A stretch of 64,000 nucleotides of DNA, taken from assembly GCF_001718695.1 (NCBI RefSeq), contig NZ_CP013422.1:62001-126000 (forward strand). The letters are read 5' to 3'. The notes below the pieces were generated by a model that ran no database searches, had not been told where the DNA came from, and worked only from the letters and a program-made list of their open reading frames with translations. Origin of the DNA: Burkholderia ubonensis. GTDB taxonomy: Bacteria > Pseudomonadota > Gammaproteobacteria > Burkholderiales > Burkholderiaceae. Each line of letters starts with the position of its first letter. Position 1 is the first letter of the stretch. The position numbers and the translations under genes were made by a program. This document shows positions 23,490 to 25,126 of the stretch, in pieces.

Positions 23490-23518
23490 TTGACAGACGT
23501 CGATACGTCCACTAGATT
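23490..23518 (+). promoter_or_regulatory. Sigma-70-type promoter of the Thr leader / ThrRS transcript
   Basis: TTGACA at 23490-23495 is a perfect -35 element. A 17-base spacer leads to TAGATT at 23513-23518, a 4/6 match to the -10 consensus. Expected initiation is about 23524-23526, which coincides with the ATG of the leader peptide, so the message may begin at the start codon. Confidence 0.65.
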
Positions 23519-23524
23519 AGCCGC

Positions 23525-23605
23525 ATGCACGCACTTCTCGTTACGACCACCGCAACCACCACCACGACCGCCAATGGCGGGCCGAGGGGAGGTTGCACGT
23601 CGTAA
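23525..23605 (+). CDS. Threonine-rich leader peptide of a transcription attenuator
   Basis: A 26-residue ORF starting ATG 23525 and ending TAA 23603-23605. Residues 1-16 read MHALLVTTTATTTTTA, that is, eight Thr codons (ACC and ACG) in nine consecutive codons, plus one more Thr near the end. This is the design of ribosome-stalling leader peptides such as thrL, pheM and hisL: low charged tRNA-Thr would stall the ribosome in the run. No Shine-Dalgarno sequence precedes the ATG. It is in a different frame from the synthetase gene downstream, which begins 94 bases after the stop. The length, composition and position immediately before a terminator and a ThrRS gene make the function very likely. 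Confidence 0.85.
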   Translation: MHALLVTTTATTTTTANGGPRGGCTS

Positions 23606-23652
23606 GTCGTTGCGTCAAACCATCCCGAAGCCCCGCCGGAAACGGACGGGGC
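23568..23652 (+). promoter_or_regulatory. Attenuator: mutually exclusive stems controlling the second ThrRS gene
   Basis: Region 1 CCGCC (23568-23572) can pair with region 2 GGCGG (23576-23580) over a 3-base loop. Region 2, GGCGGG (23576-23581), can alternatively pair with region 3, CCCGCC (23632-23637). Region 3 lies inside the left arm of the terminator (23630-23652). A ribosome stalled in the Thr codons at 23543-23563 would cover region 1, free region 2 to pair with region 3 and prevent termination. Rapid translation to the stop codon would let the terminator form. The pairings are visible in sequence; the mechanism is inferred from classical attenuators. Confidence 0.7.
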
Positions 23653-23659
23653 TTTTTTT
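23629..23659 (+). terminator. Intrinsic terminator of the Thr attenuator
   Basis: AGCCCCG (23629-23635) pairs with CGGGGCT (23647-23653). An inner CCG/CGG extension leaves one bulged A and a GAAA tetraloop. Seven T residues follow (23653-23659). It sits 41 bases before the ThrRS start codon, so termination here would silence the synthetase gene. Confidence 0.88.
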
Positions 23660-23699
23660 CGCGCTCCGTTCGGCCGGCACCACGTTCGACGGAGAAACC

Positions 23700-24908
23700 A
23701 TGAACGATTTCGATCACCGCGTGCTCGGCAACAAGCTCGATTTGTTTCACCAGCAGGATGAAAGTCCCGGCGCCGTTTTCTGGCATCCGCGCGGAATGGC
23801 GCTTTATCGCGTCGTCGAGGAATATATTCGGGTCCGAATGCGGCAGGCCGGTTTTTCCGAAGTGCGGACGCCGCAGATCCTGTCTCGCGATCTGTGGGAA
23901 CGGAGCGGCCATTGGGAGAAGTTCGGCAGGAACATGTTCTCGCTCGACAGCGACGGGCAGCCGTTCTGCCTCAAGCCGATGAGTTGCCCCTGCCATGTGC
24001 AGGTATTCAAGAAGGGCAGCCGTTCATACCGCGATTTACCGATCCGATATTGCGAATTCGGCGCGGTCCATCGCGCCGAACCGTCCGGTGCATTGCACGG
24101 CCTCATGCGCGCGCGTGCATTTACGCAGGACGACGCTCATGTACTTTGCCTGCCCGACCAGATCGAAGATGAAGTCGCGCGGTTCTGCAAGCTGCTGAAG
24201 ACGATCTACGCGGATTTCGGGTTCGGGGAGTGCGACGTGGCGTTGTCGACGCGGCCGCCGGCGCGTGCCGGCAACGATGCGGTCTGGGATCGCTCGGAAG
24301 CGATGCTGGCGTCGGCCGCGCGGGCGGCCGGGCTGGAATTCGCGATCCTGGCCGGAGAAGGCGCGTTTTACGGGCCCAAGCTCGAATTCCATCTGCTCGA
24401 CCGCCAGGGACGGAAGTGGCAGTGCGGCACGATCCAGCTCGATTTCGTGCTGCCGGAGCGGCTCGGCGCAACGTATGTGTCGGAGAGCGGCGCGAAGGCG
24501 ACGCCGGTCATGCTGCATCATGCGGTTCTCGGGAGCCTCGAGCGATTCATCGGCATCCTGCTCGAGCACCATGAGGGATGGCTGCCGACGTGGCTTGCTC
24601 CCGACCAGATCGTCGTGGCCAACATCGGCGACGATCATCGCGCATTTGCCGATCACGCGGCATCCGCTTTCGAAGACATCGGCTGCCGCGTGCTGCGCGA
24701 TTTCCGCGCCGAGCGGCTGCCCCGCAAGATCTTCGATGCAACGGAACTCGCCGCGCCGATCGTCGCGATTGCCGGCCGCAAGGAAGCGCTGGCCGGCGAA
24801 GTGTCGCTGCGAATGAGGGGCGGCGAGCAGCACGTGATGACGATCGACGCTGCGCTGGCGTTTCTCAAGCAGCATGCGCGCGTTCCATCCGCGACGCGGG
24901 CGTGCTGA
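23700..24908 (+). CDS. thrS: Threonyl-tRNA synthetase, catalytic core plus anticodon-binding domain only
   Basis: A 402-residue class II synthetase. GGAG at 23690-23693 precedes ATG 23700 at 6-base spacing. Motif 1/2 region: HPRGMALYRVVEEYIR, then KPMSCPCH and RDLPIRYCEFGAVHRAEPSG. The core Zn ligands of ThrRS are present: Cys96 in SCPC, His147 in TQDDAH and His273 in VMLHHAVLGS. Motif 3 is GSLERFIGILLEHHEG. The C-terminal 110 residues form the anticodon-binding domain. The N-terminal TGS and editing domains (about 240 residues of the usual 640) are absent, so it cannot clear Ser-tRNA-Thr in cis. A full-length thrS is expected elsewhere. The upstream attenuator should raise its expression when charged tRNA-Thr falls. 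Confidence 0.9.
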   Translation: MNDFDHRVLGNKLDLFHQQDESPGAVFWHPRGMALYRVVEEYIRVRMRQAGFSEVRTPQILSRDLWERSGHWEKFGRNMFSLDSDGQPFCLKPMSCPCHVQVFKKGSRSYRDLPIRYCEFGAVHRAEPSGALHGLMRARAFTQDDAHVLCLPDQIEDEVARFCKLLKTIYADFGFGECDVALSTRPPARAGNDAVWDRSEAMLASAARAAGLEFAILAGEGAFYGPKLEFHLLDRQGRKWQCGTIQLDFVLPERLGATYVSESGAKATPVMLHHAVLGSLERFIGILLEHHEGWLPTWLAPDQIVVANIGDDHRAFADHAASAFEDIGCRVLRDFRAERLPRKIFDATELAAPIVAIAGRKEALAGEVSLRMRGGEQHVMTIDAALAFLKQHARVPSATRAC

Positions 24909-25126
24909 TACGAAAGGCAATGCAGTCGGCGGGGATTCTCCTCAGACCATTGATTCGTCTGAGGAGATGAACCTGTCGGCAGGCGGCCTTGCGTGCCGGA
25001 CGACGACGGCCTCGACGACTGACGCACTGCGCTACGCTGCGGCCCGGCCACTGTCAGCCCTATAATCCCGCACGGCAAAATCGCCGCCCCGTACCGATTC
25101 GCAAGCCTTCCATGGAGCTTCCCGCA

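Follow-up and report, generated by a model that had tools for sequence, protein, structure and literature searches.

A leader-peptide transcription attenuator rich in threonine codons very probably precedes the gene for a truncated, spare threonyl-tRNA synthetase (ThrRS), here called ThrRS2, in Burkholderia ubonensis. The gene lies in a stretch of 64,000 nucleotides (nt) from contig NZ_CP013422.1 (assembly GCF_001718695.1, positions 62,001 to 126,000), referred to as the window; coordinates below are window positions on the + strand, and the evidence throughout is computational. As read from the sequence, the leader, a terminator, and an overlapping antiterminator exist and stay with the synthetase gene through evolution. 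That the attenuator senses Thr-tRNA charging is probable, and we consider the complete mechanism, a Thr-tRNA-sensing, ribosome-mediated attenuator that switches on the spare ThrRS2, likely as well. The first-pass annotation of this DNA had proposed a threonine attenuator on a ThrRS gene, an overall reading that is largely supported by conservation at 47 of 47 loci among close relatives and at 4 of 4 loci elsewhere.

In the proposed mechanism, transcription would begin at the leader AUG, with a ribosome presumed to trail the polymerase. With ample charged Thr-tRNA, the ribosome would cross the Thr codons into a segment termed region 2 and block its pairing with region 3 (2:3), and the terminator would stop transcription. 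With uncharged Thr-tRNA, whether from threonine starvation or from an inhibited housekeeping ThrRS, the ribosome would stall in the Thr run and leave region 2 free. Pairing 2:3 would then form before the right arm of the terminator is made, the spare synthetase would be transcribed, and ThrRS2 would recharge tRNA-Thr. Going one step further, ThrRS2 may also protect against an inhibitor of the housekeeping enzyme, a role to which we give slightly less than an even chance.

Architecture of the Leader

A promoter composed of TTGACA, a 17-nt spacer, and TAGATT (23490..23518) scores 10 of 12 matches, with 0.6 promoter-like sites expected in the scanned stretch. It ends 6 nt before the leader ATG at 23525, so transcription is predicted to begin at or adjacent to the leader AUG, giving a leaderless leader. 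The leader open reading frame (ORF; 23525..23605) has 26 codons and a TAA stop (23603-23605) and encodes the peptide MHALLVTTTATTTTTANGGPRGGCTS. Its control codons (23543..23569) are Thr codons 7, 8, 9, and 11-15, eight Thr in nine codons. Region 1 (CCGCC, 23568..23572) can pair with GGCGG at 23576-23580 across an AAT loop (-8.6 kcal/mol, z -2.6). Region 2 (GGCGGG plus GGGGAGGTT, 23576..23594) forms the left arm of the antiterminator, and its GGCGGG (23576-23581) is complementary to CCCGCC at 23632-23637. That CCCGCC, together with AACCATCCC, makes up region 3 (23618..23637), the right arm of the antiterminator, which overlaps the left arm of the terminator; the region 2-3 segment folds at -30.4 kcal/mol (z -2.4), and 2 of 200 shuffles are equally stable. 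The intrinsic terminator, AGCCCCGCCG-GAAA-CGG-A-CGGGGCT plus T7 (23629..23659; -19.6 kcal/mol, z -4.1), has a stem at 23629-23653 that none of 200 shuffles matches in stability and seven T at 23653-23659, and it was missed by a simple terminator scan. A possible hairpin, CTCCGT...ACGGAG (23664..23694; -14.5 kcal/mol, z -1.9), covers the Shine-Dalgarno sequence of the synthetase gene, whose ATG at 23700 lies 40 bases downstream of the T tract.

The gene itself (23700..24908) encodes the 402-residue ThrRS2, with a class II core and an anticodon-binding domain. Reading and folding thus bear out most of what the first-pass annotation described here, namely, the 26-codon leader with eight Thr in nine codons, the CCGCC/GGCGG pairing with its GGCGGG-CCCGCC alternative, and the seven-T terminator; the distance from T tract to gene, given there as 41 bases, is 40 in our count. 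No Rfam family matched the window (gathering scores) or six of the loci (E ≤ 0.1), and the T-box covariance model matched neither the window (gathering scores) nor locus L001 (E ≤ 0.1). A hairpin without a T tract, CTCCTCAGAC...GTCTGAGGAG, was also seen by eye directly after the ThrRS2 stop (24936-24970).

Conservation of the Locus

Of 65 genomes searched in the genus, 19 contain ThrRS2 (E ≤ 1e-146); a further search contributed the best 80 of 434 relatives. Of the 54 loci kept, five duplicate-assembly copies (L037-L041) and two loci without an intact 5′ part (L078, L083) were set aside. At all 47 remaining distinct, intact loci, from Burkholderia, Paraburkholderia, and Caballeronia, a counterpart of the leader ORF is followed by a terminator with a strong stem. 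Among 398 genomes sampled across the phylum, ThrRS2 occurs in eight (E ≤ 1e-147), four from Burkholderiaceae and four (L261-L264) labeled only as the same phylum and hence taken as another class; all four of the latter share the layout of leader and terminator. The 51 proteins form one clade (support 98/82) apart from 18 full-length relatives, in a tree in which one further row, L082, and also L261 are long branches. The first-pass annotation had called for an alignment across relatives, and in our comparison the Thr run, region 2, and terminator are kept at every one of the 47 loci; the absence of conservation that it had named as a refuting outcome is thus not what the relatives show.

The conserved details extend to single codons. 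The leaders carry 6-9 Thr per nine codons, and the Gly-Gly of region 2 reads GGC GGG in 47 of 47, a constancy to be compared with the 47 ThrRS2 genes, which together use GGG for 250 of their 1313 Gly codons. The -35 position reads TTGAC in 46 of 47 loci. Upstream of the leader ATG, a TAnnnT hexamer lies at a distance of 6 nt in 37 loci and of 7 nt in 9; L060 is the sole locus that lacks both. All 47 leaders start with ATG, whereas 24 of the 47 ThrRS2 genes start with GTG, and no AGGA, GGAG, or GAGG motif lies upstream of the start in any of the 47 leaders, which fits leaderless starts. No gene stood out as a conserved neighbor of ThrRS2 across genera (32 loci, 6-kb flanks); neighbors recurred only among near relatives.

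Folding of the Proposed Switch

Cotranscriptional folding was modeled with the RNA cut before the right arm of the terminator and with a masked ribosome footprint, assumed to span 18 nt before the A-site codon and 13 nt from it. In the window leader, 2:3 has a pairing probability (P) of 0.99-1.00 when the ribosome stalls at Thr codons 7-13, 0.68 at codon 14, and 0.33 at codon 15. With the ribosome held at the first Thr codon, every one of the 47 leaders forms 2:3 (P 0.93-1.00). The antiterminator shares the left arm of the terminator and is open to a stalled ribosome, the arrangement that marks an attenuator. In a comparison with 400 synonymous recodings per leader for 33 nonredundant leaders, 2:3 pairing is stronger than the recodings (p < 0.05) in 21 of 33, with a mean z of -2.18. 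A stall at codons 7-13 had been expected both to free region 2 and to mask region 1; the first effect is seen in the folds, but the second fails for codons 7-10, where the ribosome leaves region 1 uncovered because region 1 sits at codons 15-16.

Threonine Codon Choice

The Thr codons of the leaders and of the synthetase genes differ sharply in their use of ACC, which makes up 226 of 365 Thr codons in the 47 leaders versus 28 of 505 in the 47 ThrRS2 genes. Thirteen full-length thrS cores have 6 ACC among 148 Thr codons, and 311 predicted neighboring ORFs have 1904 among 5149; the rows are phylogenetically related, and the counts are given without a p value. In four thrS regions, ACC accounts for 4-15% of Thr codons in thrS and, in the three regions that reach them, for 23-45% in the genes that we take, from sequence and gene order, to be pheS and pheT. 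A codon favored in the leader and shunned by the synthetase gene is expected if the ACC-reading tRNA empties first. RNA pairing may also drive the enrichment of ACC in the leaders. An older idea holds that genes needed during starvation avoid the synonymous codon with which their leader senses, and it would become testable here if our reading is correct.

The Leader Family before Other Genes

The leader is not confined to ThrRS2. A covariance model built from 33 leaders matched in 60 of 65 genus genomes (E ≤ 0.01), in 107 of 329 family genomes from 8 of 25 genera (E ≤ 1e-8), and in 17 of 398 phylum genomes (E ≤ 1e-7). From the genus and family matches, 84 places without an intact ThrRS2 were chosen, and leaders with at least 4 Thr in nine codons were classed as Thr-type. 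The most frequent gene behind them belongs to the isochorismatase family (PF00857; 46 places, 41 Thr-type, with no Thr leader remaining at the other 5 by this measure). MFS genes and ABM monooxygenase genes (PF03992) follow at 6 places each, all Thr-type, whereas none of the 22 leaders before DUF2917 genes (PF11142) is. One place has a GNAT gene (not Thr-type), and 3 have unclear genes (2 Thr-type). By eye, the first ~20 residues of the intact MFS proteins resemble the ThrRS2 start, which would fit a synthetase replaced by the pump with the leader left in place. Among named families, MdtH comes nearest (59.5 bits against a cutoff of 469).

The isochorismatase-family Thr leaders are L138-L142, L157, L160, L162-L164, L166-L178, L186, L187, L190, L216, L217, L219-L227, L229, L230, L232, and L235, together with L272, L273, L277, and L279, which lie beyond the family before isochorismatase-like genes (gene type by eye). 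Leaders before DUF2917 genes (L144-L147, L149, L150, L161, L180-L185, L188, L189, L191, L228, L231, L233, L234) have no Thr run, often read ..KLIAIAIN.. and end in ..ALVR, and sometimes occur in two copies ~700 bp apart; the window genome has its own (L146, G000:C3:1689899-1690044). In another class, a leader that reads ..HMTRFGWAVGGVAR and shares the terminator core is found before small, presumably DUF1127-like proteins (L274, L275, L276, L278, L281).

Weighing the Explanations

Several observations weigh against a Thr-tRNA-sensing attenuator. The Thr run is down to 4 in nine codons at the other-class loci L261-L264, the B. seminalis leader (L031/L037) is frameshifted by one extra G after the run, and the T tract is weaker outside Burkholderia (CCTTTGGCGTTT in Paraburkholderia). 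Pairing 2:3 also exceeds P 0.5 in 15 of 47 leaders when the ribosome rests at the stop codon (0.83 for the window leader) and in 8 of 47 when the RNA is free of ribosomes; 12 of the 33 leaders compared with synonymous recodings show no significant excess of 2:3 pairing. ACC use is normal in the genes that follow other Thr leaders (209/555 in hydrolase, 26/84 in MFS, and 7/17 in ABM genes), which ties ACC avoidance to Thr-tRNA synthetases and not to the leader itself. Equilibrium folds with the complete terminator give the terminator at P 1.00 for every ribosome position in the nine leaders tried. This readout was set aside as uninformative, and with the terminator winning at equilibrium, the choice must be kinetic. 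Finally, the 1:2 hairpin, which forms at P 0.83 in ribosome-free window RNA and does look stable against dinucleotide shuffles (the z of -2.6 given above), beats synonymous recodings in only 1 of 33 leaders (mean z -0.35; window p 0.72). A selected 1:2 protector hairpin is thus unsupported, and the classic three-hairpin scheme is unproven. Since 2:3 but not 1:2 exceeds the synonymous null, we favor a simpler switch, in which a running ribosome would clear region 2 and a stalled one would expose it.

The same antiterminator could instead serve a Thr run that acts as a nascent-peptide sensor of a chloramphenicol-type peptidyl-transferase drug rather than of tRNA charging. Stalling by such drugs is strongest after Ala, Ser, or Thr codons (PMC12121999), and Ala replaces Thr inside the run in L001, L002, L008, and L009. 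The DUF2917 leaders bear Ile/Ala-rich stretches instead, and the MFS, hydrolase, and monooxygenase genes behind Thr leaders, with their normal ACC use, are better suited to a drug response than to threonine supply. Yet a Thr-tRNA synthetase is the steadiest partner whose job is known (51 of 51 loci). A peptide sensor would also give no reason to expect ACC use to differ between the leader and the synthetase gene, which is an effect at the codon level, and a run of 6-9 Thr exceeds what a drug needs. We therefore regard a drug sensor as unlikely. Control at the level of translation, with the Shine-Dalgarno hairpin as the switch and the terminator secondary, draws on CTCCGT...ACGGAG-type pairing between terminator and start in most loci, on the weak T tracts outside Burkholderia, and on a GGAGG in the leader that is able to pair with CCTCC. 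It is made very improbable by the strong terminator stem at all 47 loci and by the hairpin itself, which beats shuffles (p ≤ 0.05) in just 20 of 47 (median p 0.075) and is no more than suggestive as a real element. Least credible of all is a short Thr-rich ORF that arose by chance ahead of an ordinary terminator and regulates nothing. The bare 8-Thr DNA pattern is indeed not rare, with 10 matches in the 6.7-Mb genome (the window leader and nine overlapping matches inside one low-complexity repeat) versus 31 for the reversed control, and its rarity was rejected as an argument. The case for a nonchance leader rests on conservation instead, since promoter spacing, leader, region 2, and terminator follow in the same order at 51 of 51 loci. 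A ribosome-mediated attenuator that responds to Thr-tRNA charging remains the preferred reading.

The Truncated Synthetase

The first-pass annotation called the gene a second threonyl-tRNA synthetase, and the identity as a ThrRS stands, but ThrRS2 is a short form and not a plain second copy. Its only Pfam matches are PF00587 and PF03129, and TIGR00418 (thrS) is matched from position 172 on; by these models, the TGS and editing domains of full-length bacterial ThrRS are absent. Y224 and G225 are invariant in an alignment of 14 ThrRS2 and 4 full-length ThrRS sequences, and so are C96, H147, and H273, which align with the Zn ligands of the E. coli chain. The same genome carries a full-length thrS on contig C1 (open frame of 674 residues), 52% identical to ThrRS2 over the shared part. 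Among the database matches listed, the nearest protein is from Burkholderia vietnamiensis (95% identical). Known obafluorin and borrelidin resistance residues were not found; ThrRS2 keeps Tyr462, Gly463, and Leu489 (E. coli numbering), and no Gly463 substitution of the ObaO type occurs in the 18 aligned sequences, in which Tyr-Gly is invariant.

Database proteins of ThrRS2 length (P0065, P0093, P0150, P0151) are named from Inquilinus, Acidiphilium, Ferrovibrio, and Aliidongia. Plasmid-borne second thrS genes of Acetobacter, Pantoea, Thioclava, and Qipengyuania (L117, L119, L120, L121; records H4, H10, H17, H19) were rejected as kin of ThrRS2, being full-length at 625-660 residues and a different thing. 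For three of the four, the neighbors include folE/folE2, hisI, or dksA, which suggests zinc-stress paralogues. A Gluconobacter match has no annotated gene.

A Biosynthesis-Type Gene Set and a Possible Defense Regulon

In two genomes, G011 and G013 (L243, L244), the same succession of eight same-strand genes follows ThrRS2, with 80-92% identity from one genome to the other. Of all the genomes searched, these two have the ThrRS2 proteins most similar to that of the window (90-91%). In G013, the genes encode a LuxR-type autoinducer regulator, an iron-containing redox enzyme (PF14518, below cutoff), a fatty-acid-desaturase-like enzyme (PF00487; nearest named guanitoxin GntB, 44 bits versus 380), a pre-ATP-grasp ligase (PF18604), an MFS pump, a pyridoxal-phosphate enzyme of Cys/Met metabolism, a GFA protein, and a peptidase C26. 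Some database relatives of the ligase carry the name peptide ligase PGM1-related. A single transcript is not certain because the regulator and redox genes are set off from the genes before them by 104 and 233 nt, respectively. Genome G073 carries the pump, a decayed ThrRS2, and a fragment of the ligase. In the window, no match to any of the eight genes was found. The ligase occurs in only 3 of 329 family genomes (G011, G013, and, as fragments, G274, where no ThrRS2 was found in two short loci), and biosynthesis-type genes were rejected as a general partner of ThrRS2. At the head of this set, ThrRS2 sits as a self-resistance gene would, a likeness that is weakened by the three residues it keeps and by the lack of matches to the set in the window.

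Taken together, these parts allow a tentative reading, one that we hold to be less probable than not, in which a portable, leaderless Thr-run attenuator commands a small defense regulon against compounds that starve cells of Thr-tRNA. ThrRS2 would provide immunity, the MFS pump export, and the isochorismatase-family hydrolases and ABM monooxygenases detoxification. The cassette would have spread across Pseudomonadota, with two Burkholderia genomes in which it still heads the biosynthesis genes of the compound, and the same leader frame would have been refitted with other codons for DUF2917 genes.

Comparison with Known Systems

A B. cenocepacia transcriptome describes 82 short 5′UTR transcripts, some before tRNA synthetase genes (BCAL3373, BCAL3436), and the ThrRS2 leader is not named in the available part of that paper (PMC5688073). 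In the literature on ThrRS or Thr-run attenuators, Burkholderia, DUF2917, and isochorismatase leaders, no title or abstract opening describes the element, with subscription papers mostly outside the scope. As a class, the mechanism is known; what looks new is its Thr version on a truncated ThrRS, together with the predicted leaderless form and the presence before other genes. The expectation that a Thr leader on a ThrRS gene would be a new class member fits this picture, but the precedent among synthetases is wider than the PheRS case (pheM) first cited, with the auxiliary TrpRS of Streptomyces as a second one.

The E. coli thrABC leader (thrL) and pheM-pheST have leader peptides with repeated control codons before a terminator; thrL controls threonine synthesis, and pheM controls the synthetase operon pheST, which encodes the only PheRS. 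The window leader differs from both in its spare, truncated ThrRS target and in its predicted leaderless form. Closer in kind is trpRS1 of Streptomyces coelicolor, an auxiliary, indolmycin-resistant TrpRS gene that was reportedly placed under ribosome-mediated transcriptional attenuation by Vecchione and Sello in 2010. In our reading, the two share the plan of a spare synthetase gene that is induced by stress and attenuated through a leader peptide responding to the amino acid of the enzyme; trpRS1 differs in that it concerns tryptophan in Actinobacteria and has its resistance shown rather than inferred. A second ThrRS gene of Bacillus subtilis, thrZ, is reported to be under T-box antitermination (Putzer, 1992). 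Like ThrRS2 in our reading, it is a second ThrRS gene controlled by transcriptional antitermination, but the T-box RNA binds tRNA directly, without a leader peptide.

Streptomyces TrpRS1 is listed in PMC9437257. For the leaderless form, Sinorhizobium meliloti trpL offers an attenuator RNA whose first nucleotides are the ATG of the leader ORF (PMC7298713); it serves Trp and trpE(G), and its start is mapped where that of the window leader is predicted. In ObaO, the obafluorin self-resistance ThrRS, Ser replaces Gly463 and Met replaces Leu489 (PMC11252418). ThrRS2 is likewise a second ThrRS linked to a biosynthesis cluster, but the window protein keeps Gly and Leu and has no N-terminal domains. 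Anabaena T2 is a second ThrRS with poor editing that is induced by stress, as would be true of ThrRS2. T2 still has its editing domain, in impaired form, and is induced when zinc is low (PMC4787780, PMC9437257); ThrRS2 has no editing domain. If our reading is correct, threonine and Proteobacteria join the few cases of spare synthetases run by leader-peptide attenuation, here in a leaderless form, and one attenuator module has been placed before several unrelated genes. It would also point to an unknown compound that acts on the supply of threonyl-tRNA, together with the genes for resistance to it.
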